A stretch of DNA of 64,000 nucleotides from the NCBI RefSeq assembly GCF_004009905.1, contig NZ_ML136875.1, positions 1 through 64,000 on the forward strand, given 5' to 3'. The notes beneath the pieces are model-generated. The model saw nothing but the letters and a program-made list of their open reading frames with translations, did no database searches and was not told the origin of the DNA. The DNA is from Lactobacillus xujianguonis. Its GTDB lineage: Bacteria; Bacillota; Bacilli; Lactobacillales; Lactobacillaceae. The translations under genes and the position numbers were made by a program. The stretch's first letter is position 1, and each line of letters starts with the position of its first letter. Below are positions 38,622-62,936 of the stretch, one piece after another.

Positions 38622-38666
38622 TTGTTATTGGCTAAATGCTTTTTTTATATAAATGGAGGAATAACT

Positions 38667-38999
38667 ATGTTTTTAGCAGCATACACTAAATTGAGTTACT
38701 TGTTTTGGAGTGGGTTAATTGGTACTCAAGCATTTTTGAATGAACACCCAGTTTTACTTGATGTTTGGAGTAACATCAACAAAGCTACTGGTAGTACTGA
38801 GAAGAACTTAAAAAATATTGCCAAGGGGTTGTTCATCGTTGTCATTATTTTAGCAGGTATTCTGTTTGCTTTTGGTAACAGAATGTCGCAAAACGCAAAA
38901 CAATTACTCATGTATGCGTTAGTCGGTGTTGCCATTGTTGCTTTGGCAGCAAGTTTGGTACCGTCATTCGCAAACATGTTTGGCTGGAATGCTAAATAA
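38667..38999 (+). CDS. VirB2/CagC-like pilin-type membrane protein
   Basis: A 110-residue protein with two hydrophobic helices (about 50-70 and 78-100) separated by a short basic loop (NRMSQNAKQ) and an upstream amphipathic part, the pattern of Gram-positive VirB2-like (CagC/TrsA-type) proteins. Start ATG 38667 follows ATGGAGGAATAAC; a longer TTG frame back to 38622 lacks a signal. Confidence 0.6.
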   Translation: MFLAAYTKLSYLFWSGLIGTQAFLNEHPVLLDVWSNINKATGSTEKNLKNIAKGLFIVVIILAGILFAFGNRMSQNAKQLLMYALVGVAIVALAASLVPSFANMFGWNAK

Positions 39000-39076: not shown

Positions 39077-41401
39077 ATGTTATTAGTCACCTTTGAGAAA
39101 GTTCCAAAAGGGGCAAAAAAATATTTCCAATTTAAGCATAAATTTAGTAGAAAATCACCTGAATTGGAAATTAAAGACGCTGATGATGCAGTTAAAAGCT
39201 ATGCCAAAGCTTTAAAAGAAGCAGATACTAATGTAGCTTTTACAATCACTGATGATGAAGATGAAGATCGAGAAGAGAGCACCTTTGAAGCTGCTATCAT
39301 GCCTGAAGATCAAGATGGCGGAATTTTAAACTTGATTGATCGAGATTTGGAAAATGAAAATTTGACGCGAGACGAAGAAGAAACCGTTACAAATTTAAAA
39401 GATCAAATTTTTAATGAACTTGAACCCGCTCTATCTGATGAAGACAGCGACGCAGACAATTTAATGATGCCGAATAATGCTGATGTCTACCCAGAAACAG
39501 AACCAGGAGATCAAAGCAATTCAGACGTTGAAGCAGGCGAAAAAATCCCCCCTGAAAATGATGTTCCGGCTATCAATAGTGCTGTATCTGAAACGCCATC
39601 TATTAATAATAATAATGTTCCAGCACAACCAACCATTGTTCCTAATATGCCCGATTCTCCAGCGACGGTATCAAGCGTTGAAGTAAAACGTAATGATGTA
39701 ATTAGTTATGGTAAATATATCGATGCAAATGATATTTTAGATCGCTTACCAAAAGGGTATGATAAGAATCAATTTGCACTAAGTAGTATTAGACACGATT
39801 TGGGATACTTGGACACTCCTAGAGATCAATATGATCAAAAATTAAATGATAAAATTGATCAATTTTTAAGAGAATACTCAATGCAAGATATTCAGCGCGA
39901 ATATGATGAGGGTTTGGCTAAGTCAAAAGTTGCAATTATTGATCGATTAAAGGAAGCATACAATAGGATTAATAAAGAACCGCTCGATAAAATTATTGAA
40001 AATAAAACTGCATCGAAGGTTCTGGATTTAAAAGCTAAGGCTAATCAAAAGAAACAAAATAATTCGATTGATCTTAAAAAGCTAAAGGAAACCAAGGCAT
40101 TAGAACTAAAAAATAATGATGAAGCAGCACTAGCTGAGTTTAAAAAGCAATTAGAAGAAAAGCGAAATTTAGCTTTAAAGAACTTTAATGATCAAGAAGA
40201 GTTAAGAACTCGGAATGCTAATGAACGAATTGACGAACAGCTGAAATCTGATCAAGCTAAGGTCAAGAGTATAGCTCGTGACGAAGAAGTACTAAAACGT
40301 AATTCTGCATTAGATGATGATCGCACAACAATAAGTAATAATTTTGATCATGCAGTTAGATTAAACTATGACAACCACAATGATTTATTTGAGCAAAATA
40401 TAAAAAAGGTTCAAGAAAAAGTCCAAATTGCAAAAGAAGAAATTAACAAGCAAAGACAACTTGATCTTGAAAAAGCGGAAGAGAAACGTCAACGTGAAGC
40501 AGAAGCTGCACGTAAAGAACGCGAACTTGATTTGAAGCAGAAAGCAATTGAACAGAATGAATCCTTAGCGAAATTACAACAAGAGAATATGGCAAAATTG
40601 CCTGAACAATTTGCTAAAGCAATTGCAGAAGCGATTACTCAAAATAATTTAGAAAATCCTAATGTAAAAATTACATTAAATGGTGAAGGTAAGGATATTA
40701 ATTTACCCGTACCACATGTGCAAGGGCAAATTGTAGATTTAGATGATAAAGGCAATAGAATTAAAACTCCTAGTCAGCCTGAAACACCAGAAGATAGTGA
40801 TTTAGAAGGAGCAAATGATAATTCTAAAATCAGAAAGAAGAATTACAAAGTTGGAATTATCTCATTAGTTGGTCTTGCAGCTCTGAGCGGTTTAGGAACA
40901 TGGGCTTATATAAGTTATAGTCCAAAAAACGGAAATAAAGTAGTTGTTGAACAATCAAAACTTCATGTAAAGGAAGATACTAAGTCTGACAATAAGAAAG
41001 CCAATGATAAGGCTAGTCAAAGGGCTAGTCAAAGCAAAATCTATCCTAGAAATAAAGGTAAAAATAATTTGACTGTAACACATTTAACTAGAACTCAAGC
41101 TGTTTTAAAGCAATATCGTGAAGCCAATACTTGGGCACAAAAGAGAGATGTGTTGGATGGATTATTAGGACAAGGTGATGCAAGGAACTTGAAAAAGATT
41201 GCTACAACTTATCCAAGTACAATTGCTAATTTATATAGTGCGATTGCCAGTGATGATAAAGCTCAAACAAGGAATATTTGGTTGAGTATGTCTGATGAGC
41301 ACCGCACTGAAATATCTAATGCTGCTAAACGGGCTGTATCTTTGGCTTTCTATGATGTTGCTGATTGGCAAGATGGATGGATGGCTAGATATGCGTACTA
41401 A
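39077..41401 (+). CDS. Large coiled-coil transfer protein with one membrane segment
   Basis: A 774-residue protein. Basic N-terminus (1-30), acidic and Pro/Asn-rich linker (50-210), long coiled coil (about 250-510, rich in KAEEKRQREAEAARKERE), one membrane helix (about 592-613) and a C-terminal domain of about 110 residues outside. Unlike any named transfer protein I know; its place before VirD4 suggests a scaffold or coupling role. It overlaps the VirD4 gene by 11 bases. Confidence 0.65.
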   Translation: MLLVTFEKVPKGAKKYFQFKHKFSRKSPELEIKDADDAVKSYAKALKEADTNVAFTITDDEDEDREESTFEAAIMPEDQDGGILNLIDRDLENENLTRDEEETVTNLKDQIFNELEPALSDEDSDADNLMMPNNADVYPETEPGDQSNSDVEAGEKIPPENDVPAINSAVSETPSINNNNVPAQPTIVPNMPDSPATVSSVEVKRNDVISYGKYIDANDILDRLPKGYDKNQFALSSIRHDLGYLDTPRDQYDQKLNDKIDQFLREYSMQDIQREYDEGLAKSKVAIIDRLKEAYNRINKEPLDKIIENKTASKVLDLKAKANQKKQNNSIDLKKLKETKALELKNNDEAALAEFKKQLEEKRNLALKNFNDQEELRTRNANERIDEQLKSDQAKVKSIARDEEVLKRNSALDDDRTTISNNFDHAVRLNYDNHNDLFEQNIKKVQEKVQIAKEEINKQRQLDLEKAEEKRQREAEAARKERELDLKQKAIEQNESLAKLQQENMAKLPEQFAKAIAEAITQNNLENPNVKITLNGEGKDINLPVPHVQGQIVDLDDKGNRIKTPSQPETPEDSDLEGANDNSKIRKKNYKVGIISLVGLAALSGLGTWAYISYSPKNGNKVVVEQSKLHVKEDTKSDNKKANDKASQRASQSKIYPRNKGKNNLTVTHLTRTQAVLKQYREANTWAQKRDVLDGLLGQGDARNLKKIATTYPSTIANLYSAIASDDKAQTRNIWLSMSDEHRTEISNAAKRAVSLAFYDVADWQDGWMARYAY

Positions 41402-44249
41402 AGTTAGGAAAAAACAAAAATTAAATTTAGAAGATATTAGATCTAAAAGTAGAAGCGTAATTAAAAAAGGATGGTATCAAGTTGAAAGACAATTGCATCG
41501 TCCTAGAAATGAAAATAAACAATCTAGTAATTTCAACTTTAATTATGCGAAGCTGATTACACCAGTTGTTATAGGAGTGTTCATTTTTCTGGTAATCATG
41601 TGGTTACTAGGTGCAATGCATAGTGTTACGTTGCAGGCACAAACTAAAAACTATAACTTACTCACGAATGGTTTCGATTTCGATAAGGCAGGTTTAGCTG
41701 GATTAAATATTTTAAAGACAGTAAAAACACAGTTAAAACCTTTTGAAGTCTTTGAAGTGTTTGTTGCTAGTGTAATTATTGGCGGATTGCTAAGTCAGAA
41801 ATTTAACTTTGAAAGTCAAAAAGTAGCTCATGGGCAGAAGGGTAATGCACGATTTACTACGATTAAGGAATTAGAAGACACTTATGTTAAAGTTCCAGAT
41901 CATAGTCAACGAGGATTAGACCCTAAAAAGCCGAGCTTTAAAGGATATGGTGGGTTCCCAATTGCCCATATTAGTCCGTTGTTAACAAAACATGGTTATT
42001 ATTTCATTGATACAAGTACAGTCCATAATTTAATTGTAGGTACTTCACGCTCTGGTAAAGGGGAAACTACTATATTAGAACAGATTGACCTAGTTAGTAG
42101 AGCAGAAAAGCAATCGTCACTAGTCGTGAATGACCCTAAAGGGGAACTGTATGTAGCTTCTGTAGAAACTTTAAAAAAGAGGGGATATGATGTTTATGAG
42201 TTAAACTTAGATGATCCAAATAAAGGTATTGCATTTAACCCACTACAGTTAATTATTCGAAGTTGGGAGCAGGGTGATGTTGAAGGAGCTATGCAGTTAG
42301 TTAATTCAATTACCTACTCGTTGTACTTTGATAAACAAGCAGGACAGAATAAATGGGTTAATGATGGTGCACAGTCAGCTGTTAACGGTATGATCATTGC
42401 GCTCATTGAGTATTGTATGAATCCTAAAAATTTTGACGATCATAAAACTCATCCTGAATACATTACTTTTGTAAATATATCCGACATGGTTAATCAGTTG
42501 GGACAAATTGATTATATAAATCCAGCAGATCCTTATACCCAGCATAATGTATTGAGTGAGTACTTTAAGCATTTAAAGCAAGGATCTATTGCTAAAAAGG
42601 AATTTGGGTCAACAAATTTCTCAGGTGATAAAGCAAGAGGTTCAATTTTCTCAACTGTTGTACAAAAACTTGATATTTTTACCTTACCGAAAAATTCACG
42701 TATGACGAGCATGAATACTTTAGAGATGAAATCAATAGGATTTCCAAAATATTTAGAATTTCAGCTATTGGATCAACGTTTGTACGGTAATTTAATCAAA
42801 ATTATTTTCAGAGATGAACATCATAAAAAGCTAAAGACAAACGAGATTCGTGTAAGTCAAAAAGGCTTTGTTGAAAATAACTTTGATGTCAATTTAAAGT
42901 CAGGTAGTTATGTAGAGATACAGGCTAATGTTGGTAAGCAACGTTTATCAAATACATACAAATTAAAGATTGATTCAAATGTTAAAGATGTTGAAGTAAG
43001 TCAGGTAAGTAAGCAAGGTATCAGAATGGAAAACTTCAAGATGCATTATAGTGATAAACCAATTGCAGTCTTTATGAAAATCCCAGATTCTGATGCTTCT
43101 AACAATTTACTAGCAACAATTTTTGTAAATCAACTATATACAGAGTTATCAAGGCAATGCCGCTTGGTTCAAGGTGGTAAAACGGTTAGACGAGTACAAT
43201 GTATTTTTGATGAGTTTGGTTCTATGATTCCATTGCAAAATATGGATCAAATTATGACAGTTTCCGCAGGTAGAAATATTCTATTTACTTTAGTAGTTCA
43301 ATCCTATTCTCAACTGTACAGTAAGTATGGTAAAGAAGATGGTCAAGTTATTAAAGAAAATTGTCAAAATAAGTGTTTGATCATGTCCACTGATTCAGCA
43401 ACTAATAAAGAATTTTCTGAAGCCTGTGGTAATCGTACGATTGAAGTAAATAATATTTCGAAAGATAAGAATGGACTTGCCAAAAATATAAGTGTCAGTC
43501 TTGATAAAGTACCGTTAATTTTACCTGAACGATTAGAACATTTAGCTGGCGGTGAACGGCTAGTTCTGCGTCCATTGACAAGAATGAATAAGTGGGGTTG
43601 GGCAGTGACTTCCCACCCGATTTTTAATACAGGTAAAACATTAATGCCTTTTGCCCATACATTCTTGAGTGATGACTTTAATCCTAAAACTAATCCAGAT
43701 TTAGTAGAAAAGATTGATGCCCACGCTAGTCTTGACCTTAAATCACTAGAAATTGATTGGGGAAAATGGCTTAATTGGACAGATCAAGTTCCTGTGCAAC
43801 AAGATGATGGCACCACACGTATAGAGGAACAGAACTTGGCACTACAAGCATATAATCAATATCGTCAAAGTAATCCAAGTGCTGAATCAAGCAACGAACC
43901 CTCTAAGGAAGAAAATGAGAGTACAAATGTTGATAACGCTTCACAAGCTGCTGAATCTGAAATTGAATCAGAATTGGCAGCAAGCTTAAATGCTGCAACG
44001 CAAGATAATGAAGATGAGGACAAAGTTCCATCCTACATTTTGACTTGGGTTAAGAAGCATGAAGCGGAACTAACTTATGATACAATCGCTGATATGCTGA
44101 CTAAAGCCAAGAATTTAGATACTGCTAACTCAGTCGATTTTACAAACTTAATCTATAAAGATGAGAAGTTAAAGGATCAGCAAGCTAAAGCAAATGAGTT
44201 AGTTCAAGATTTTAGCAAAATTTTTAATGATAACTATCAGGATAAGTAG
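41391..44249 (+). CDS. VirD4/TraG-type conjugative coupling ATPase
   Basis: A 952-residue membrane ATPase that brings the relaxase-DNA complex to the secretion channel. Two N-terminal membrane helices (about 45-70 and 120-140), Walker A VGTSRSGKGETT near residue 215, Walker B CIFDEFG near 605, and a long acidic C-terminal extension (about 800-952). A roughly 100-residue insertion lies before Walker B. ATG 41391 is chosen; the longer frame lies inside the preceding gene. Confidence 0.93.
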   Translation: MRTKVRKKQKLNLEDIRSKSRSVIKKGWYQVERQLHRPRNENKQSSNFNFNYAKLITPVVIGVFIFLVIMWLLGAMHSVTLQAQTKNYNLLTNGFDFDKAGLAGLNILKTVKTQLKPFEVFEVFVASVIIGGLLSQKFNFESQKVAHGQKGNARFTTIKELEDTYVKVPDHSQRGLDPKKPSFKGYGGFPIAHISPLLTKHGYYFIDTSTVHNLIVGTSRSGKGETTILEQIDLVSRAEKQSSLVVNDPKGELYVASVETLKKRGYDVYELNLDDPNKGIAFNPLQLIIRSWEQGDVEGAMQLVNSITYSLYFDKQAGQNKWVNDGAQSAVNGMIIALIEYCMNPKNFDDHKTHPEYITFVNISDMVNQLGQIDYINPADPYTQHNVLSEYFKHLKQGSIAKKEFGSTNFSGDKARGSIFSTVVQKLDIFTLPKNSRMTSMNTLEMKSIGFPKYLEFQLLDQRLYGNLIKIIFRDEHHKKLKTNEIRVSQKGFVENNFDVNLKSGSYVEIQANVGKQRLSNTYKLKIDSNVKDVEVSQVSKQGIRMENFKMHYSDKPIAVFMKIPDSDASNNLLATIFVNQLYTELSRQCRLVQGGKTVRRVQCIFDEFGSMIPLQNMDQIMTVSAGRNILFTLVVQSYSQLYSKYGKEDGQVIKENCQNKCLIMSTDSATNKEFSEACGNRTIEVNNISKDKNGLAKNISVSLDKVPLILPERLEHLAGGERLVLRPLTRMNKWGWAVTSHPIFNTGKTLMPFAHTFLSDDFNPKTNPDLVEKIDAHASLDLKSLEIDWGKWLNWTDQVPVQQDDGTTRIEEQNLALQAYNQYRQSNPSAESSNEPSKEENESTNVDNASQAAESEIESELAASLNAATQDNEDEDKVPSYILTWVKKHEAELTYDTIADMLTKAKNLDTANSVDFTNLIYKDEKLKDQQAKANELVQDFSKIFNDNYQDK

Positions 44250-47931: not shown

Positions 47932-49941
47932 ATGAGACTTTCTACTTTAGTAAATGCTAGAAAACATAAGACAAAAAAAGTAAATGTTAAGCTAAATCCA
48001 CGTCAAGTCACTAGTTTAAAAAAGCAACGTGAATTATCCAAAAAAGGGTTCAATACTAGATTTTTAGCAGATGTACAACCTCAAGGTGGGATCACGTTTG
48101 CGGATAACTACGCAATTGCTAGTGATGGATATGCGGCTTGTTTGTCCGTAATTCATTATCCTAATGATCCATTGCTACTGTGGCTGACTCAAGTAGCCTT
48201 GAACGATTCAACTTTAACTACAATTGATGTTAAAACTGACTCAGGTTATGAAATTAAACGGCAGTTAAACAGATCAATTGAGGAATTGGCAGATAGACAA
48301 GTTAATGCAAGAAAAGCTACAGATGCTTTAAACGCGCAAAAAGATATGCAATCACTAGAAAAGTATGCATTGGAATTAAGTCAAGGTGGCGAAATTCCTA
48401 AGTTAATGTTAACTAGAATTTTTGTTTATGCTTCAACAATAGAAGCATTAGATCAATCTGTGTCTAATCTACGTGGCAAACTTCGCGGAGAAGGGTATAA
48501 TGTTGCAGTTTATATGTTTATGCAAGACAAGCAATTTAAATCAATGGCTTTGCCTCTCTCTTATCAAGAAAAAGACTTGGCTGCTCTACCAGAACAACCA
48601 ATTCCAGCATTAACGGTTGGTGCTGGTGATCCATTTTCAGCTCAAAGCCTAAAGGATCCAAGAGGAGTGTGGTTAGGTCGTACTAGTACTGGAGGAGCTT
48701 TTTATTTTGATCAATTCAGATCAACTAACGTCCGCAGATCATTTAACATGATGATCTTGGGAAAGATGGGTGCTGGTAAATCTACTTTAATGAAAATGTT
48801 GGTTGAAGGCGCAATCGCAAGGGACATGTATTTCCGTGGGATTGATAAAACAAAGGAATATATTCCTTTAATTAAACATTATGGTGGTACAGTAGTTAGT
48901 CTAGATGGTTCTGAAGGTATGATTAATCCATTAGAGGTAATGGCAACTATAGTTGATGAAAATACTGGTAAGGTTGATGAACTAGCCAGTTTTTATCAAC
49001 ATATTTCTAAAGTGGATATTCTGTTTCAAATGATCAACAAGGGATCATTTCAAAATATTGAAATGCAAGAATTTGACTCTTTACTACGTGGATTTTACGT
49101 AGATATGGGTCTATTACCTAGAAATTTTCAGCAGAATAAAGGAAGCATTAAAATTACTAATTTAGATAGTAAGAAATACCCAACTTTCAGCCAGTTTTTG
49201 AAATGGCTACAACAATTAGCTACACCAATTTATTATCAAGAACATCAATTTACGGCAGAAAGAATTAGAACGTATGAAAAAATCAAAGTAGCCCTAGAAT
49301 CAATGATTGAGAATTATGGTCAATTATTCGATGGTTATTCAACGATGAGAGACTTAACTGATACTAAACTCTTGTTATTTGATTCATCCGCTATTTCAAC
49401 GATGACTCAAAATGTTTATCAGGCACAGTTGTATATGGCTTTAAATTTAATCTGGAGTCAAGCGTTAATTAATGGTCGAAAACAAAATGCTTTATTAAAA
49501 GCAGGAAAAATAACGCGTCAAGATGTGCAATATTTTGATGTGTTCCTAGATGAATGTCATAACATCATCAACTATAAAAATATTTTTGCTGTAGATTACG
49601 TTAAAAACTTTGAACGTGAAATGAGAAAGTTCTGGGGTGGAATTATTTTTGCAACGCAGTCACCTGAAGAAATGGTTCCTGATTCAGTTGAATCAGCTCA
49701 GTTGTCAAGTTTGAAAGTGGTATTTGAACTTTGTCAATATAAGTGGTTGATGAGTATGGATCCATCACAACGTAAGAAAATAAAAAGTTTACTAGGTGAA
49801 GCATTAAATAGTTCAGATTATAGTAATATTCCTGACTTGCAGACAGGACAAGTAATTGTCACGATGGGAGGGCGAGAAAGATACCAAGTCAAGATTAAAC
49901 CATCTGAACGACAACTTGAAATTTTTGCAGGTGGTCAATAA
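47932..49941 (+). CDS. VirB4/TrsE-type conjugation ATPase
   Basis: A 669-residue ATPase that powers the secretion channel. Walker A LGKMGAGKSTLMK near residue 276, Walker B VFLDECHNI near 540, and ATQSPEEM with the expected sensor residues near 570. No membrane helix. Ends sharing one base with the next gene. The best-conserved transfer gene in the window. Confidence 0.93.
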   Translation: MRLSTLVNARKHKTKKVNVKLNPRQVTSLKKQRELSKKGFNTRFLADVQPQGGITFADNYAIASDGYAACLSVIHYPNDPLLLWLTQVALNDSTLTTIDVKTDSGYEIKRQLNRSIEELADRQVNARKATDALNAQKDMQSLEKYALELSQGGEIPKLMLTRIFVYASTIEALDQSVSNLRGKLRGEGYNVAVYMFMQDKQFKSMALPLSYQEKDLAALPEQPIPALTVGAGDPFSAQSLKDPRGVWLGRTSTGGAFYFDQFRSTNVRRSFNMMILGKMGAGKSTLMKMLVEGAIARDMYFRGIDKTKEYIPLIKHYGGTVVSLDGSEGMINPLEVMATIVDENTGKVDELASFYQHISKVDILFQMINKGSFQNIEMQEFDSLLRGFYVDMGLLPRNFQQNKGSIKITNLDSKKYPTFSQFLKWLQQLATPIYYQEHQFTAERIRTYEKIKVALESMIENYGQLFDGYSTMRDLTDTKLLLFDSSAISTMTQNVYQAQLYMALNLIWSQALINGRKQNALLKAGKITRQDVQYFDVFLDECHNIINYKNIFAVDYVKNFEREMRKFWGGIIFATQSPEEMVPDSVESAQLSSLKVVFELCQYKWLMSMDPSQRKKIKSLLGEALNSSDYSNIPDLQTGQVIVTMGGRERYQVKIKPSERQLEIFAGGQ

Positions 49942-51401
49942 TGATTAAAAATCTTAGACGGTTAAGACAGACAAAGAGATGGGCTGGATTAGCCGTTTTT
50001 TTATTAGGCATTCTAAGTCTGGTAGCGGTGTTGTATTTCATTGTACTTTTGATTGCTGCAATGGGTGGAGCTTCAGATGATGATTGTGATACAGGTGGTA
50101 ATCAGGGAGGAGTAATAGAAGGCAGAATTAGTGTTATTGAAACTCCTAAATATGGTGAAACTGCTATGATGCATATCGCGGATGCCGTGAGTGAGAAGAC
50201 AGGGATTAGTGCTAGATTGCTTTTTGCTCAAATGGGCGAAGAGACAGGTAATGGTGATAGTTCTGTTGCAAGACATGATCATAATTTTGGTGGTATGACT
50301 TACTCACCAGGTTCTACGATTGGCACAAAAGGTGAAAGTCGTGGTGGCGAAGGAGGCAACTATGTACACTATGCTAGTCTAAGTGACTTTGCGACAGAAT
50401 GGGCTGTCACGGTTCAAAATAACTTCAAAAAAGCAGGATTAGGTAAGGATGCGACCGTTGCGGATTATGCTCACGCAATGAAAAAAGCAGGATACTACAC
50501 TGCAGATGAAAGTGCATATAGAGCAGGTATGGAGGCTCAAGCTAAAAAATATGATGCTCTAAAAGGTAATAAATCACTAGCAAAGGGTGATGGTTCTAGT
50601 GGATCAGACAATTCTGCAGAAGAAGATTGTAAGACTATTAGCGGAAAATGGGGCTGGCCATTCAAGTCAATTCCAAAAAGTGGACCAGGTAATACAGTTT
50701 CAGGTGAGCAATTATTTGGTAAATCGTCCACAAGAACGGGAGGATTTCACGATGGGGTTGACTTTGGTACAGTACCTTATGGAGGTCAAGATATTTTGGC
50801 AATTCATGGTGGCACCGTTAAAAAGATTGCCTTTCAAGGTCATACTCAAGACAACTTAGGTATGTATGTTTGGGTAGAAGGTTCTGACGGATGGAATACT
50901 ATCTATCAAGAATTTGGCTTTGACGAAGGAGATTTGAAATATGTAAGCGTCGAAGTAGGTGACAAAGTTTCAGTAGGAGACAAGATAGGACATTTAGCAA
51001 ATAATTCAGGTAGCATTAACCACGTGCACATTGGGGCAACGAAGAAAGACTTCAATACTGCGGAAAAATCTGCATATAAAGATGATGGAACTTGGCATGA
51101 TCCAATTAAATTAATCAAAGAAGGGTTGAATAACGATGCAGAATCTGAAGCAGACGATGGTCTATCAAAAACAGAATCTGAAGCTCGTGATTGGATTGTC
51201 CAACATGAATCAAGTGGTCGTTGGGACGCAACTAATCCAACTAATTCTAGTGTTTATGGTCGTTATCAATTGAAGAAAGAATATCTCCACGGCGACTTTA
51301 GTCATAAAAATCAAACCAGGACTGCCAATCGGTATGTTAAGGGACGTTATGGTTCATGGCGCAATGCACAAAAATTTTGGGAAAAGCACGGATGGTATTA
51401 A
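49941..51401 (+). CDS. Three-domain cell-wall hydrolase of the transfer system
   Basis: A 486-residue membrane-anchored enzyme (helix about 15-42). Domain 1 (about 55-205) is glucosaminidase/GH73-like (GISARLLFAQMGEETGNG). Domain 2 (about 235-390) is an M23 endopeptidase with HDGVDFG and HVHIG metal ligands. Domain 3 (about 410-486) is like the C-terminus of aggregation-promoting factor (VYGRYQLKKEYL, ending KHGWY). It would open peptidoglycan locally for the channel, as VirB1/TrsG proteins do. Confidence 0.87.
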   Translation: MIKNLRRLRQTKRWAGLAVFLLGILSLVAVLYFIVLLIAAMGGASDDDCDTGGNQGGVIEGRISVIETPKYGETAMMHIADAVSEKTGISARLLFAQMGEETGNGDSSVARHDHNFGGMTYSPGSTIGTKGESRGGEGGNYVHYASLSDFATEWAVTVQNNFKKAGLGKDATVADYAHAMKKAGYYTADESAYRAGMEAQAKKYDALKGNKSLAKGDGSSGSDNSAEEDCKTISGKWGWPFKSIPKSGPGNTVSGEQLFGKSSTRTGGFHDGVDFGTVPYGGQDILAIHGGTVKKIAFQGHTQDNLGMYVWVEGSDGWNTIYQEFGFDEGDLKYVSVEVGDKVSVGDKIGHLANNSGSINHVHIGATKKDFNTAEKSAYKDDGTWHDPIKLIKEGLNNDAESEADDGLSKTESEARDWIVQHESSGRWDATNPTNSSVYGRYQLKKEYLHGDFSHKNQTRTANRYVKGRYGSWRNAQKFWEKHGWY

Positions 51402-55625: not shown

Positions 55626-57239
55626 TTGAATCGACCAGCCATAATTTTGACTTCAAAATTTTCTGCACCAAGTGCACAAAAAACTTTTGGGCGTTACGTT
55701 GGATATATGGCTAGAAAGGAAGCATTAGAGAAAAAAGAATATTTATCAGATAAAGAAAAATCTGAATTAGACCGAGTTGAAACTCAAGCGAAAAAATTAG
55801 ATCAAAAATATAATTTTAGTGTGATAAAAAGTGAAGAGCATTCTAAAAGAGAAAAAGAAGCAAAAGAATTAATTAAGAAAAAAAGTATTTTTGATTTAAA
55901 CGATAAGGAATTTGATAAGTACCTTGGGTATATGGTTAGAATTGATGCATTAAATCATAAAAAAGAAAATTCAAAGTTAACAGCAAAGGAACAAAGTGAA
56001 TTAGAAAAGATTGGAGCTGCTGCTAACCGACTAAGTGAACTCCATGCAACAAAAGAAAAAGTTTTGGATGGAGTTTTTAGTTCAGACAAAAATGTTGTTC
56101 AATTAAAAGATTTAAATTATATTCGCGAGCAGTTAAATGAAGGACAAAAAAATAATTCCGTATTGTGGCAAGATGTAGTTAGTTTTGATAATAGCTTTTT
56201 AAAAAAGAAAGGAATCTTATCTAGTACAGGAATTTTAAACGAGGAAGAGTTACTAAAAGCAACTAAAAAAATGCAAAGTGTTTTTCAAAATGAAATGGAT
56301 CCTCCTTTAAATAATATGTACTGGGTAGCTTCTATTCATCGCAATACTGATAATGTGCATATACATATTGCGACTGTAGAACGAGATCCACGTAGAAAAC
56401 TAATTAATCGAGATGGGATTAGTCAACCTAAAGGTAGACGGCCGCAAAAAATAATTGATCATATGAAGAGTAGCTTTGCCAATGAATTAATTGGCTCATC
56501 AGAATTAACTAAAGAATTATCTCAAAAACGTCAAACGATTAGAGAAGCTATACAAATTAACTTGACTGCTCAAGTTGAACAACCAACTTTTCAGGCAGAG
56601 CTTAATGAATTTGTTAAAATCTTGCCTGAATCAAGACGGAAATGGTTTTACAATAAATTGAATGAACCACAAAAAAAGATGTCGAATCACTTAGTTGATG
56701 AACTGCTAAAAGACAATTCTGATTTCAAAAAATATAAAGACTTAGTTTGGGAATTACAAAATGACCGACAAAGTTTATATGGTAAAAGTAAACGTAACAA
56801 TAAAAATTATGCAATTAATCAGTTATATGGTAAAGAAGGGATATACGCCAGAAATGGGAATGCACTACTTGCTGATTTAAGAAAAATTGATAAGCAGGCA
56901 AACCATAATCAAAGACATAGAGTTAGTTTTAAAGAAAAAGTAGATCCAAATAAGTATATTCAATCGGCATTAGAAGAAATCTATAAGCAAAAATCCAAAA
57001 AAGAAAATGTGAAATCTTCATTTGATGAAAGTTATGCTCCTCATCCACATGGTAAAAGTAAAACAAGAAATATAAAAGGGCATTATCTAAAGAAACCCTT
57101 TATAACTCAAAGTCAAATACGCAAAATAAAATCAAATCAAGAAAAAGTATTTGAAAAAACCAATGCGGATAGAGAAAGCAGAAAGAACTTACGTGAATTC
57201 GAAAAATTGCAGAATGAAGTTGAAAAAGAACTAGAATAA
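55626..57239 (+). CDS. Relaxase, MobP-type (MobP2/MobP3-like)
   Basis: A 537-residue DNA-nicking enzyme that starts transfer. FGRYVGYMARKEAL near residue 21 carries a candidate catalytic Tyr, and ASIHRNTDNVHIHIATVE near 237-254 is the HxH metal-binding motif. A helical C-terminal half rich in Lys follows. TTG start with TAGGAGGTAAATT. It lies just after oriT and the relaxosome genes, the classic order. Confidence 0.87.
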   Translation: MNRPAIILTSKFSAPSAQKTFGRYVGYMARKEALEKKEYLSDKEKSELDRVETQAKKLDQKYNFSVIKSEEHSKREKEAKELIKKKSIFDLNDKEFDKYLGYMVRIDALNHKKENSKLTAKEQSELEKIGAAANRLSELHATKEKVLDGVFSSDKNVVQLKDLNYIREQLNEGQKNNSVLWQDVVSFDNSFLKKKGILSSTGILNEEELLKATKKMQSVFQNEMDPPLNNMYWVASIHRNTDNVHIHIATVERDPRRKLINRDGISQPKGRRPQKIIDHMKSSFANELIGSSELTKELSQKRQTIREAIQINLTAQVEQPTFQAELNEFVKILPESRRKWFYNKLNEPQKKMSNHLVDELLKDNSDFKKYKDLVWELQNDRQSLYGKSKRNNKNYAINQLYGKEGIYARNGNALLADLRKIDKQANHNQRHRVSFKEKVDPNKYIQSALEEIYKQKSKKENVKSSFDESYAPHPHGKSKTRNIKGHYLKKPFITQSQIRKIKSNQEKVFEKTNADRESRKNLREFEKLQNEVEKELE

Positions 57240-57637: not shown

Positions 57638-59317
57638 ATGAAAAAACAATATCAACCATATCCAATTATTGTGAGATTTCCAAAGGAAATGTATGATGAC
57701 AAAGGTAAATTAACTATGAACGATCATGAGGTTAAGGAAGCAATGATGAAACCCAGTCGTCCATATATGCCATTAATGGGACAACTCATTTCAGATTCTA
57801 CACATACTTACTTTGTACCATTTAGAAGCCATATTCCTGCAAACAACTTAGCGAGGTTTCCTGAAACATATCTAGTTTTGAAATCAAGTGAAATCGAAAA
57901 AGGATCCAATAGTTATACAAACTATTCAGGTATGGATTTGAATAAAATGATTTTAGTAGATAACAACATAGATTTGAAACTTGCTCAAAGTGGTATTAGC
58001 CCAGAAGAATATCATGTTTTATTTCAAAAACAAGATGAACTTTATGATAAAACTAGTGATTATGTGACTCACTATATGGAACAAGTGAAACAAGGTCGTC
58101 CCCTCGATGATAAATATAGGTTTTCAACGTTACCTAACTTTAATAAAGAATTAGGTTTAGAGAAAGAAAGAGTTAAGGATCAACAAAGGCATAAGGCTAC
58201 TCAAAATCATGATGGTAAAAACGGTAGAGCTTTTACTTCTGAACAGATTAAAGCTGCAAATCAAGCAAGTATAGTAGAGTATGCTAATGTTGCTGGAATA
58301 GAACTGGAACAGACAGGAGCAGATGAATTTAAAGGAGTAGAGCATGATTCACTTGTGATAACACCTTCTAAAAATTCCTTCTATTGGAATTCACGACAAG
58401 TTCATGGCAAAGGCGCTTTGAGTTTTGTTGAACAATATGAAATGGCAGATAGTAATTTAAATAACAAGGACAAATTTATTTTTGCAACTAAAAAAGTTTT
58501 AGAAAGTGGTGTTAGTGCAGGTCAAACATATCAAGTAAAAAAAGAACCTTTTAAATTTAATAAGGATCAGCTAGATAAAGATAATAAAATCAATCGAGTA
58601 TGGGGATATTTACATAATGAGAGAGGAATATCTAGCCAAACTATCGACCAGCTCCATAACAGTAAAGTGCTTTTCCAAGATAAATATGGAAATGCACTTT
58701 TTTTATGGCGAGATCCAAAAACTAAAGAAATTAAAGGTACGTCAAAACAAGGAACTAAAGTTGATCATCAAAAATATGGCAAAAGAGGTACATTGAAAGT
58801 TATTGAAAAGAATTCTACTACAGGCTATGGATTTACTTTTGACTCCTCCAACATGAATGGCAAAACTCCTGAAAATATAAAATTTTTCGAATCACCAATT
58901 GATGCAATTAGTTTTTATGATTTATCTAAAGCAAAAATTAAAGGAGGGCTGAAAAATACTAGATTTGTATCAATGGATGGCTTAAAAAAGGAAGTGTTCA
59001 ATTCATACATTAAACAAACTTCTGAACAACTCCAAAAAGAAGGACGAACTCTTAAAACCGTTGCTTTAGGGGTAGATAATGATGAAGCTGGGAAAAAGTT
59101 TGTTAAAGATATTCAATCTAAATTTTCAAAAGTAAAATATATTAAACCAAGTGAAAAATTTGGAAAAGACTGGAACGACACCCTAAAAGTTTATAGAAAA
59201 ATTGAAAGTAAAGAAAAAGACAAAACACCTGAAAAAAAGCCAGTGTGTAAGCCAGCGGTAGATCCAAAAATAGCGGAAATGATGAAACATAGAAAGGATA
59301 GGGGATTAGAGAGATAA
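57638..59317 (+). CDS. Toprim-domain primase-like protein (DUF3991/TraC-LtrC type)
   Basis: A 559-residue protein. N-terminal part (1-190) unknown; 205-330 resembles zinc-less CHC2/DUF3991 regions (EYANVAGIELEQT); 395-510 is a Toprim domain with FFESPIDAISFYDLSK and GVDNDEAG, the Glu and DxD-like residues expected for metal binding. Similar proteins prime the incoming strand in the recipient. The C-terminus AVDPKIAEMMKHRKDRGLER is nearly that of the ArdC-like protein at 60146. Confidence 0.75.
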   Translation: MKKQYQPYPIIVRFPKEMYDDKGKLTMNDHEVKEAMMKPSRPYMPLMGQLISDSTHTYFVPFRSHIPANNLARFPETYLVLKSSEIEKGSNSYTNYSGMDLNKMILVDNNIDLKLAQSGISPEEYHVLFQKQDELYDKTSDYVTHYMEQVKQGRPLDDKYRFSTLPNFNKELGLEKERVKDQQRHKATQNHDGKNGRAFTSEQIKAANQASIVEYANVAGIELEQTGADEFKGVEHDSLVITPSKNSFYWNSRQVHGKGALSFVEQYEMADSNLNNKDKFIFATKKVLESGVSAGQTYQVKKEPFKFNKDQLDKDNKINRVWGYLHNERGISSQTIDQLHNSKVLFQDKYGNALFLWRDPKTKEIKGTSKQGTKVDHQKYGKRGTLKVIEKNSTTGYGFTFDSSNMNGKTPENIKFFESPIDAISFYDLSKAKIKGGLKNTRFVSMDGLKKEVFNSYIKQTSEQLQKEGRTLKTVALGVDNDEAGKKFVKDIQSKFSKVKYIKPSEKFGKDWNDTLKVYRKIESKEKDKTPEKKPVCKPAVDPKIAEMMKHRKDRGLER

Positions 59318-59333
59318 GCAAAGAAAAAATAAA

Positions 59334-59460
59334 CAAAAAAAGAAGCACATACCGCTTTCCGTATGTGCCGTTCTTTAAAGATTCTCACTGATCTAGTCCT
59401 CGCCTTCTTTAAGCTAGCATGTCGCTAAGGCAGTAGGCAACCTAGTTGAAAAACAACTCT
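59334..59460 (-). ncRNA. Candidate minus-strand small RNA with terminator
   Basis: A perfect stem GCACATAC/GTATGTGC (59345-59368) is followed on the minus strand by TTCTTTTTTT. The 90 bases upstream of it (minus sense) hold no gene. A TAAAGAT box near 59470 could start a short RNA. Evidence is the terminator plus an empty gene space. Confidence 0.35.
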
Positions 59461-59554
59461 TTAATTTGCACCGTGATCTTTACACAAATTGTACAACGAA
59501 AAGATAAAAAGGGTGACATCTTATGGAGATAGAAAATATAAGGATGGGATACAA

Positions 59555-59977
59555 ATGAAAAAAGCAATTATAGTTGCTCCTAGTTATTTAGGTAAGTATC
59601 TTTTATTCAAAATTGAAAGTAATGGAAAAATTCGGTATGAATTTTCTAAAGGTTTGCAAAAAAATAATGAAAGTTTATTTGTTACTGCTCTTAAAACTCT
59701 TAAAGAACAAACAAATTTAAAACCGAATATTTCAATTCAACTGAAAGAAATTATGTTTCCAGCAACGTTAGATATGAAAGTTTTAGGCTATTTAACAGAA
59801 GTTGAAGATGCTTCTGAATTACATATAAAAGGAAATAGAAAATATAAGTGGGTTACTTTTCAAGAGTTAAAAGAGTTAGTAGCAAATGGACAAATTATCG
59901 ATAGTTTAACTCTCAGTGTGATATGTAAAATCTTTTGCACTAGGAGTTATAAAAAAATAAAGAAATTGAGGTTATAA
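59555..59977 (+). CDS. Degenerate Nudix-fold protein
   Basis: A 140-residue protein. Residues 34-56 align to the Nudix box (GX5EX7REUXEEXGU) with G and first E kept (GLQKNNE), but RE is KT, and EEXG is EQTN. The end KWVTFQELKELVANGQIIDS is the usual Nudix closing strand and helix. Key metal-binding glutamates are lost, so hydrolysis is doubtful and a ligand-sensing role is possible. RBS AAGGATGGG; longer frame to 59489 rejected. Confidence 0.6.
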   Translation: MKKAIIVAPSYLGKYLLFKIESNGKIRYEFSKGLQKNNESLFVTALKTLKEQTNLKPNISIQLKEIMFPATLDMKVLGYLTEVEDASELHIKGNRKYKWVTFQELKELVANGQIIDSLTLSVICKIFCTRSYKKIKKLRL

Positions 59978-60017
59978 ATAATAATGAAGAATATTAGAGC
60001 ACCACCTTACCTACAAA

Positions 60018-60082
60018 CTGAAAGTTTACTAAAAGGCTGTATCATGTGAATTTTAACGTGATATGGCTTTTTTCTTTCAGTT
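60018..60082 (+). terminator. Nested intrinsic terminator
   Basis: AGGCTGTATCATGT and ACGTGATATGGCTT pair, followed by TTTTTT. Outer ACTGAAAG/CTTTCAGT extends the structure. Confidence 0.75.
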
Positions 60083-60103
60083 TTTTAACCAAATTATAGT
60101 TAT

Positions 60104-60126
60104 AACCGAGCATATGCTCGGTTTTT
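60104..60126 (+). terminator. Leader terminator directly before the ArdC-like gene
   Basis: ACCGAGC-ATAT-GCTCGGT followed by TTTTT, ending 20 bases before the start codon. Together with the terminator at 60018 it would isolate this gene unless read-through or a promoter inside the space acts. Confidence 0.65.
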
Positions 60127-60145
60127 GTATTGGAAAGGAAAAAGT

Positions 60146-61990
60146 ATGTCAACACGTTCAGATATTTCGATACTTAAGCCTGATGGTACTGTAACAACAC
60201 AGTACATTCATATGGACGGATATTTAAGTGGAGTGGGTCAAACATTGCTTAATAACTATAAAACAATGGCTGATGCTGAAAAAATCATGCAACTAGGCGA
60301 ATATCATGCTGATTCTATCCTGCCTGAATATCCAAAAGATATTGCTTCAAAGCTGAAGGAATATAAACAAGATAAAACTTATGTTAGCCAAGGCTATCCA
60401 AGTTTAGAATCAATGCAAAACGCATTAAAACAATATACAGAATATCCACGAGATTATGGTCAAGTAGCCAAAACCTTAAATTCTGATATTGAATATCATT
60501 ACTTGTACGCTCCTAATAAAGATGGAAAATATCAGTGGCACACAATTAACAGAGATGGTATTGAGCCTTTAACACAAAAATCAATCAATCTAGAACAGGA
60601 GATTGGAATTACAGAACACTCTCCAAACTGGCAAAAAGCACCTAATGGTCAATGGAATGCACCTTTAAATGATAAAGAATTGTCAGGGTTAAATAAAGGC
60701 ATTCATCAAATGGACCAAAATTTGAAAGATTTTAACAAGCGTGAAAAACAAACTTCAGAAAAATCCAAAGTCCATTCTAAAAAGAAATTGGATCTTGAAG
60801 CTTGGAAAAAGCAGCATACCCAAACTGTTGAAAAGTTGAAAAATGGCTTGTTAGAAGAAATAGAGCATTATACACAATCTCCAGAGAAGGTTGTAGAATT
60901 GTTGGAATTTATCAACAAGTTTCACAACTATTCTGCGAGGAATGCTTTATTAATCCAGCGTCAACGTCCAGGAGCAGTTGCTGTTGGCTCTTTTGCTAAA
61001 TTTAAAGAGCTGGGATATAACGTTAAAAAAGGCGAGAAAGGCAGTAAGATTTTTGTTCCTGCAAAAATTACAGTTTTCTACCGTAAAGATAAAGACGGTA
61101 AGCAATCCAAAACATCTTTAAAACTTGCAACTGAATCAGAAAAAGAAAAGATTAAAAAGGGGCAAATTAAAACTTATGACCGTACAATATACAAATTAGG
61201 AACTGTTTTTGATGCAACACAAACTGATATGCCAAAAGAAAAATATCCTGAATTGTATCCTAATCGACATCAAGATTTTAAAGCAAAAAATCCAGAGCAA
61301 CTAGATCTTTTAGAACAAGGCTTAAGAACTGTAGCTGCAAACATGAACATGCCAGTCATCACGTATGATAGTTCCATGCAAGATGTAAATGATCCTCAAA
61401 CTGCTAAAGGATACTTTAATACTAAAACTAACCAAATTGTTTTAAATCAGTACAATACACCTACAGAGAATGTAACTGTATTGGCTCATGAGCTAGGACA
61501 TGCACAATTGCATAATAATAGCAAGCAGGAAAAGGGATTACCGCGAGAATTAAAAGAAATGCAGGCCGAATTAACTAGTTATTTGTATGCAAGCAACTAT
61601 GGGATCGATTCTAGGAAAGAAACTGTGAACTATATTGCTGGTTGGACGCAGAATGGGAAAAAATTTAATGAACTCCCGACAGGTGTTAAGGGACAAATAA
61701 TTGCTCACTCAACTTCTGCAGCAAAAGTACTTACAAAAGCTACGGATAAAGTGATTCAACAAGAGCAAGCGAGAATTGATGGTGTGAAGAGTCTTGTTTC
61801 AAAAGATGTTGAAGAAAAAATTCAGCAAAATGCTAAACAAGAAACAATTAAGCCTGAAAATGATCACAAAAGTCCTGTTGAAGATATTGCTCAATCAAAA
61901 TCAGACAAAGAACAAGATCATAGACCAGTGGTAGATCCAAAGGTAGCAGCAATGATAAGACGTAGCAAAGATAGAGGACTAGAAAGATAG
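60146..61990 (+). CDS. ArdC-like antirestriction/zincin protein (LtrC type)
   Basis: A 614-residue protein. N-terminal part (1-210) unknown; 225-330 is an ArdC/DUF1738 single-strand-binding domain (NYSARNALLIQRQRPGAVAV, ELGYNVKKGEKGSKIF); 400-500 is a zinc protease fold with LAHELGHAQLH. ArdC of plasmid pSa protects incoming DNA from restriction. The C-terminus VVDPKVAAMIRRSKDRGLER matches the tail of the primase-like protein. ATG 60146 follows GGAAAGGAAAAAG. Confidence 0.82.
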   Translation: MSTRSDISILKPDGTVTTQYIHMDGYLSGVGQTLLNNYKTMADAEKIMQLGEYHADSILPEYPKDIASKLKEYKQDKTYVSQGYPSLESMQNALKQYTEYPRDYGQVAKTLNSDIEYHYLYAPNKDGKYQWHTINRDGIEPLTQKSINLEQEIGITEHSPNWQKAPNGQWNAPLNDKELSGLNKGIHQMDQNLKDFNKREKQTSEKSKVHSKKKLDLEAWKKQHTQTVEKLKNGLLEEIEHYTQSPEKVVELLEFINKFHNYSARNALLIQRQRPGAVAVGSFAKFKELGYNVKKGEKGSKIFVPAKITVFYRKDKDGKQSKTSLKLATESEKEKIKKGQIKTYDRTIYKLGTVFDATQTDMPKEKYPELYPNRHQDFKAKNPEQLDLLEQGLRTVAANMNMPVITYDSSMQDVNDPQTAKGYFNTKTNQIVLNQYNTPTENVTVLAHELGHAQLHNNSKQEKGLPRELKEMQAELTSYLYASNYGIDSRKETVNYIAGWTQNGKKFNELPTGVKGQIIAHSTSAAKVLTKATDKVIQQEQARIDGVKSLVSKDVEEKIQQNAKQETIKPENDHKSPVEDIAQSKSDKEQDHRPVVDPKVAAMIRRSKDRGLER

Positions 61991-62672: not shown

Positions 62673-62936
62673 ATGAAAATTACAGATAGCAATTTTAAAA
62701 ATACATGTTTACTACGTACTAATGGCACGGATTATTGGGTTAACCTAGAAGCAGCCGTGATTAAAAACTTAATGACAAATTGGCAGTTTTTAAAAGTGCC
62801 TACTTTAGAACTAATCAAAAATAATAATGTGTTAAACCTTAAAGAAGATAAATGTTGGATAAAATCATCAGAGATTGAAGCAATCGAGGATTACACAAGT
62901 TTTGCTCCACAATTAAAACAAATGTTTAACTTTTAA
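62673..62936 (+). CDS. Hypothetical protein before topB
   Basis: An 87-residue protein with Trp- and Asn-rich sequence and no membrane segment or known motif. RBS AGAAAGGTAATT. Shares the palindromic promoter with the topoisomerase gene 24 bases downstream. Confidence 0.65.
   Translation: MKITDSNFKNTCLLRTNGTDYWVNLEAAVIKNLMTNWQFLKVPTLELIKNNNVLNLKEDKCWIKSSEIEAIEDYTSFAPQLKQMFNF

Follow-up and report, generated by a model that had tools for sequence, protein, structure and literature searches.

Why should two unrelated proteins of one conjugative element end in nearly the same twenty residues? This question is raised by a 64,000-nucleotide stretch of Lactobacillus xujianguonis DNA (contig NZ_ML136875.1, positions 1 to 64,000; hereafter the window), which is occupied from ~30 kb onward by a conjugative element. 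A primase-like protein of 559 amino acids (57638..59317) ends in AVDPKIAEMMKHRKDRGLER (59255..59314), and an ArdC-like protein of 621 amino acids, counted from a TTG codon (60125..61990), ends in VVDPKVAAMIRRSKDRGLER (61928..61987). Both C-termini, which were taken from the translated open reading frames (ORFs) and aligned as tails, fit the pattern ..VDPK[IV]A.M....KDRGLER, and all window features given here lie on the forward strand. The choice of protein cargo by Gram-positive conjugation systems is little known. The analysis suggests that the tail probably marks both proteins as substrates of the conjugative type IV secretion system (T4SS) that the element itself encodes, and that this C-terminal tag is specific to the element.

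The primase-like protein carries DUF3991 (Pfam, 1.4e-11) followed by Toprim_2 (3.8e-11), which is the arrangement of mobile-element Toprim primases, and its priming activity is predicted. Its remaining parts are a tentative ToxN-like N-terminal region and the C-terminal tail. The ArdC-like protein is composed of ArdcN (Pfam, 1.8e-10), an M78-type metallopeptidase (Peptidase_M78, 1.7e-7) and its own tail; an ArdC N-terminal domain joined to a zincin-like metallopeptidase places it in the polyvalent/ArdC family. Both proteins are of a cytosolic type, and according to Pfam their domains are unrelated. In local alignments their bodies scored 45, which is the background level, and their tails scored 80, which none of 2000 shuffles reached (p 0.0005). 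The claim of the earlier note on this DNA that two unrelated proteins share a C-terminal tail is confirmed by the ORF ends, the Pfam domains and the alignment of tail against body.

The last 60 nucleotides of the two genes are identical at 47 of 60 positions, and the similarity falls off at the stop codon. Between the two copies, the KDRGLER codons show four synonymous and no non-synonymous differences, whereas the 14 codons upstream of them show two synonymous and seven non-synonymous differences (exact P = 15/715 = 0.021). The two tails evidently share an origin or were copied, and diverged afterwards. The last seven codons differ only synonymously, in contrast to those upstream, which suggests that selection maintains the seven residues. 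The net charge of the tails is +2 and +3 over 20 residues. The arginine spacing R-x7-R-x-R-x-R, which we take to be the form of the VirF-type signal, is absent at the C-termini of both proteins, and BID, a folded domain, gave no match in Pfam scans of both proteins at E 0.001.

The likeness was placed against chance by scanning 18,013 within-locus pairs from Bacilli conjugation loci, all without detectable body homology, with 30,000 between-locus pairs as the null. The window pair ranked first with a score of 43. Two pairs, including that of the window, scored at least 34 against 0.00 expected, and six scored at least 30 against 1.8 expected; one of these six (L134) consists of two short, doubtful ORFs. 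The excess at lower scores was modest, with 153 pairs against 121 expected at 20 and 34 against 22 at 24. A chromosomal control pair (L187, ending ..TWTLADAP) also scored high, at 49, and presumably consists of undetected homologues of a known wall-binding domain.

The exact KDRGLER DNA pattern occurs at two places in the organism's own genome, both in the window pair. In 397 genomes of the family, DRG[L/M/I/F]ER followed by a stop was found at 12 places (reversed control, 3), and the two window proteins were the only ORFs of at least 60 amino acids that ended in it. The search for the literal tail proposed by the earlier note thus found no further ORF ends beyond the window in these 397 genomes, and the picture of an exact tail shared among Gram-positive integrative and conjugative elements needs changing: as an ORF end it was found only in this element among those genomes, and other elements carry their own versions.

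These other versions become visible in C-terminal statistics across conjugation loci, in which family labels came from profiles built within this analysis and genes were called simply as longest ORFs, so that some false ORFs fall in the class of other genes. The discovery set comprised 64 element clusters (86 loci), and the features were chosen after inspecting those loci. Terminal arginine was found there in 39/113 relaxase, primase, ArdC and fusion proteins, 5/78 machine proteins, 76/992 other proteins and 14/313 chromosomal proteins. Two sets and no other data were held out, namely 15 Bacilli plasmid loci and 28 mostly non-Bacilli loci, 20 of them from G genomes and 8 from named sources. 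The plasmid loci were fetched after the features had been fixed and were hand-picked among 120 matches listed; 17/35 of their cargo proteins ended in arginine against 22/251 (p 5e-8), and without three loci related to the discovery set the counts were 16/28 against 17/202 (p 8e-9). All Bacilli were then pooled and reduced at 60% identity, with relaxase, primase, ArdC and Fic counted as cargo. Terminal arginine occurred in 58/151 cargo proteins against 111/1470 others, and hydrophobic-x-Arg in 34/151 against 42/1470. The fractions at position -1 were 0.38 for arginine and 0.04 for lysine in cargo, against 0.08 and 0.15 in other genes. Counted by element cluster, an arginine-ending protein was present among the cargo in 41 of 76 and among the machine proteins in 6 of 64. 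Position -3 was hydrophobic in 61 of 139 Bacilli cargo representatives, whereas the mean at positions -4 to -12 was 19% (p 1.5e-11). The C-terminus of Bacilli cargo has a hydrophobic island at -3 within a polar tail.

Individual Bacilli elements show such tails on proteins of several kinds. In genome G089, the ending [KR]G[LM]ER is found on an ArdC, a primase and two nucleotidyltransferases of the AbiEii type; tail scores between these three kinds are 24-35, with uncorrected shuffle p values of 0.0005-0.032. Three Fic proteins encoded on plasmid NZ_CP113923 (Lactobacillus sp. ESL0731) share a tail with an ArdC-Toprim fusion of that plasmid. In G246, arginine is the last residue of the primase, of an ART-PolyVal protein, of a Fic protein and of a protein of 416 amino acids. 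Among the plasmids fetched later, Priestia p3 encodes an ArdC ending ..KKKKSEYELER and a 454-amino-acid protein ending ..KKKRAEYELER, and Staphylococcus plasmid pTDC04C encodes an ArdC (..NQIER) together with proteins of 224 (..NELER) and 449 amino acids (..NYER). An AbiEii protein of an Enterococcus faecium plasmid ends ..NQEMER. The relaxase is included in two loci: at L221 it ends ..ERGYER and the ArdC ..EVELER, and at L225 the annotated relaxase ends ..HDIER and the primase ..QALER.

A second tail was found in MobL elements of presumed clostridial genomes; the labels clostridial and Lactobacillaceae of the G genomes were inferred from kinship labels and named relatives. In the pair scan of these elements, DUF6103 proteins and an Amidoligase_2 protein shared an acidic stretch followed by G[ML][ST]M[ST][ML], and the endings ..NFSMTM and ..MKLSM of some primases are apparently variants of this tail. 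A search of 84 genomes for the pattern G-hydrophobic-[ST]M[ST]M gave 19 places, and the reversed control pattern gave 4. Thirteen of the 19 end ORFs of more than 100 amino acids, each with a MobL gene no more than ~13 kb away; three of the remaining six end ORFs of 47-55 amino acids and three end no ORF of at least 40. Assigned by Pfam or by eye, the 13 are seven DUF6103-type proteins, five amidoligases and one relaxase, with three of the 12 non-relaxase ORFs scanned with Pfam. The relaxase is the MobL protein of G972, whose frame ends ..TPGMTMTM. Among 12 genomes with a large MobL relaxase (>100 bits, window aside), the pattern was present in 8 and absent from 4. The per-position test of non-Bacilli after 60% redundancy removal, which counts amidoligase and DUF6103 proteins among the others, gave an [ST]M[ST]-hydrophobic ending in 0/15 labelled cargo and 5/242 others. 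That test left 15 labelled cargo proteins; the case for the second tail rests on the pattern search and the pair scan. Two further endings were observed in presumed clostridial elements, ..RKGLSDF[TNI]QSM on Fic proteins (L203, L204, L208) and ..[RH]QSY on several relaxases (L198, L199, L200, L204), and they possibly form another tail class. The earlier note had described the tail as basic. This holds for the net charge of the window tails, whereas the Bacilli enrichment is for a hydrophobic residue at -3 and for arginine, not lysine, at -1, and the presumed clostridial tail follows an acidic stretch.

The idea of a secretion signal, which the earlier note had put forward, gains indirect support from these comparisons: similar tails are carried by unrelated families that would act in the recipient, sometimes by the relaxase, and seldom by machine or chromosomal proteins. 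The tail may be read as a substrate tag because it is common to unrelated proteins, occurs on proteins needed immediately in the recipient and sometimes on the relaxase but seldom on the machine, and varies by element. Taken as a whole, the data are best read as C-terminal tags that mark substrates for conjugative type IV secretion in Gram-positive bacteria and differ between lineages; the transfer itself is inferred. The VirD4 coupling protein, or an adaptor, would recognise a flexible tail that has a hydrophobic residue at position -3 and arginine at -1, and the primase and ArdC would pass through the channel together with the DNA. In the recipient, the primase would prime the second strand and ArdC would shield single-stranded DNA from restriction, while toxin-type proteins with such tails would be injected as early effectors. 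A wider proposal is more tentative: Gram-positive MobL-type elements may tag for delivery a protein set that includes toxin-type enzymes (Fic, AbiEii, ART, MazF-like). The peptides would be specific to the lineage, of the hydrophobic-x-Arg type in Bacilli and of the G-hydrophobic-[ST]M[ST]M type in presumed clostridial elements, and would change in step across unrelated proteins when the receptor changes.

Related cases are known from other systems. As the earlier note says, ArdC of pSa and TraC1, the TraC primase of RP4, are stated to be transferred proteins in Gram-negative systems (PMC5512222). The same paper (Iyer 2017) proposes that polyvalent proteins move with the DNA and that ArdC-N itself is the delivery header. 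The window pair resembles these proteins in its ArdC-N, zincin metallopeptidase and Toprim domains and differs from them in its tail, since the parts of PMC5512222 considered here describe no shared C-terminal tail; the words Fic, ToxN and AbiQ are absent from its main text. Gram-negative T4SS substrates such as Agrobacterium VirF and the Legionella Dot/Icm effectors have charged or hydrophobic C-terminal signals (PMC10025392, PMC11288057), and composition biases are reported for T4SS effector C-termini (PMC3915618). Like these signals, the window tails are terminal, charged or hydrophobic and placed on unrelated proteins. In contrast to them, the tail of the window is almost the same in both of its proteins, and it takes another form in other elements. 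The VbhT Fic toxin of Bartonella is delivered by a conjugative T4SS via a BID domain common to the relaxase (PMC5675462). Fic proteins of some elements described here likewise share a C-terminal tail with another element protein. The tail, however, is a peptide of ~5-20 residues in Gram-positive elements and occurs on several protein families.

How far the tail follows the element is best seen in genome G272, whose element comes from the same genus as the window and encodes an orthologous primase that is 65% identical over the aligned domains. The bodies of the two primases align with a score of 1136 and their tails with 17 (shuffle p 0.25), and the ArdC proteins behave in the same way (bodies 714, tails 12, p 0.62). 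Within G272, the primase and ArdC tails are alike (score 28, p 0.004). The C-termini of the relaxases stay similar between the two elements, with a score of 58. The tail thus seems to belong to the element and not to the protein family, with one clear case behind this view. The G272 coupling protein (G272:C3:14984-17593, L252) is 57% identical to that of the window, and the match contains a single in-frame stop; for the VirB4-like ATPase the identity is 73%. This difference is compatible with a faster-changing receptor and is no proof of one.

Several results weigh against a delivery tag. The relaxase of the window, the surest substrate, has no tail similarity at its C-terminus (shuffle p 0.38 and 0.86). 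The element's Fic protein, which ends ..NNGMDLE, likewise matches neither tail significantly (p 0.46 and 0.49). Terminal arginine is lacking in 93 of the 151 pooled Bacilli cargo proteins. The Bacilli features were not replicated in the 28 mostly non-Bacilli loci, where terminal arginine occurred in 10/45 cargo, 10/54 machine and 42/451 other proteins and hydrophobic-x-Arg in 3/45, 0/54 and 39/451; a single universal tail motif was dropped for this reason. The window ArdC tail shows some likeness to the G272 primase tail (score 24, p 0.017), and because of this cross-similarity the two elements are not fully separated by their tails. The shuffle p values of single tail pairs are uncorrected, and 28 pairs were compared. 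When primase and ArdC tails were matched by element, the permutation test was significant (p 0.006-0.019, n 11), but the permutation controls were also positive (primase-VirB4 0.0004-0.037, upstream segment of relaxase-primase 0.005). The nearest-neighbour-element test was not significant for primase-ArdC (p 0.11, 10/15 positive), relaxase-primase (0.27) or relaxase-ArdC (0.087), and two VirB4 control pairs reached 0.02 in it. These matched-pair tests are confounded by phylogeny. Element-wise co-variation of tails was not relied on, since the permutation controls were positive and the nearest-neighbour version was non-significant for the cargo pairs. The likeness of primase tails to VirB4 C-termini of the same element, seen by nearest neighbour (p 0.019) as well as by permutation, was greater than expected and probably reflects shared phylogeny.

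Among the alternatives, the one that survives best, though it is not very likely, is a docking role: the peptide would bring proteins together at the coupling protein, the relaxosome or the transferred DNA, and they would stay in the donor. Such a peptide accounts for DNA-processing proteins that share a tail, for the occasional relaxase tail and for lineage specificity, but the tailed Fic, AbiEii, ART and amidoligase proteins have no obvious donor-side DNA-processing job. Somewhat less probable is shared ancestry, by which an LtrC-like ArdC-Toprim fusion gave rise to two copies that each kept a different half, or gene conversion copied one 3' end onto the other gene. Two-domain ArdC/Toprim proteins are common in relatives (19), where the fusions adjoin relaxase and topoisomerase genes; they have the same two domains as the window pair, but in the window these sit in separate genes, both of which end in a copy of the tail. 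Copying would fit the 47 identical terminal nucleotides and may explain how the tail arrived, but it does not explain the purely synonymous differences in the last seven codons, the joint difference of both tails in G272, or such tails on Fic and AbiEii genes, and plasmid NZ_CP113923 speaks against it. A C-terminal degradation or stability signal that sets the level of establishment proteins is improbable: such signals are typically short, disordered peptides confined to the C-terminus, but the form of the tail varies by element and lineage whereas host proteases are conserved, and terminal arginine is uncommon on chromosomal proteins (the 14/313 above). Chance or compositional likeness of charged, disordered tails hardly deserves credence, since it fits the weaker tail matches, which are only modestly above the null rate, but neither the window pair, which lies far outside the null in the pair scan and for which chance is rejected, nor an enriched residue that is arginine and not lysine.

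A substrate tag of this kind would matter beyond the window. Experimental evidence for relaxosome recruitment in Gram-positive systems has been called limited (PMC12857230). With a readable tail, conjugation effectors could be catalogued from sequence data, even those whose function is unknown, and, if true, the delivery of toxins of toxin-antitoxin modules during conjugation would extend to Gram-positive bacteria. The authors of the VbhT study expected more cases of toxin delivery and called short signals notoriously difficult to predict (PMC5675462). No description of a shared C-terminal tail in Gram-positive conjugative elements was recognised by title or abstract, with subscription journals mostly uncovered, which is weak evidence of novelty.

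The element encodes sortase/adhesin-type genes, a TrbC/VirB2-like pilin (38622..38999; Pfam TrbC 3.2e-8), a VirD4-type coupling protein (41295..44249; T4SS-DNA_transf 4.5e-35, TraG-D_C 7e-25), which is the presumed receptor of the tail, and a VirB4-like ATPase (47932..49941). The ATPase has weak AAA_10 and P-loop_TraG matches below the cut-off, and relatives retrieved by a profile seeded from it carry VirB4 annotation. It is followed by the cell-wall hydrolase of the transfer machine (49941..51401; glucosaminidase and M23 by Pfam) and by a MobL relaxase (55626..57239; Pfam MobL 1.1e-61), which ends ..KLQNEVEKELE without the tail. A MobL relaxase with VirD4, VirB4-like ATPase, pilin and wall hydrolase nearby places the element among MobL/MobP2 conjugative elements. 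Small proteins encoded at 59489-59977 and 62673-62936, between the primase, ArdC and topoisomerase genes, are without the tail and without a Pfam match (E 0.001). An in-frame ATG (MSTRSD..) lies seven codons downstream of the listed TTG start of the ArdC gene and is probably the true start.

The tentative N-terminal region of the primase that resembles the type III toxin ToxN covers residues 29-150 (57722..58087). Its match to PF13958 (E 7.4e-5) reached 23.4 bits at a cut-off of 25; a PDB sequence search with it gave no match up to E 10, and a fold predicted from the single sequence was uninformative (predicted local distance difference test score 42.5) and was discarded. The region is absent from the shorter primases of L018 and L052, and weak matches to it (E 7e-3 to 2e-5) occur in hypothetical proteins from Listeria, Escherichia, Salmonella and Vibrio plasmids. 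In viral contigs, neither the ArdC protein nor the primase N-terminus had relatives by pattern-based scans.

The Fic gene of the same element lies on the contig of the window, past the window end (L179:15296-16123). Its product holds HPFDDGNGR and an N-terminal SNAIEGN, which we take to be an inhibitory-type motif, and matches the PADLOC models PDC-S04 and SoFic. Directly upstream of other Fic genes, two small proteins (L017:13122-13544 and L018:13117-13359) without a Pfam match both hold ..LEGW.P...DI.YL..KAYNPD.., and they are perhaps Fic antitoxins.

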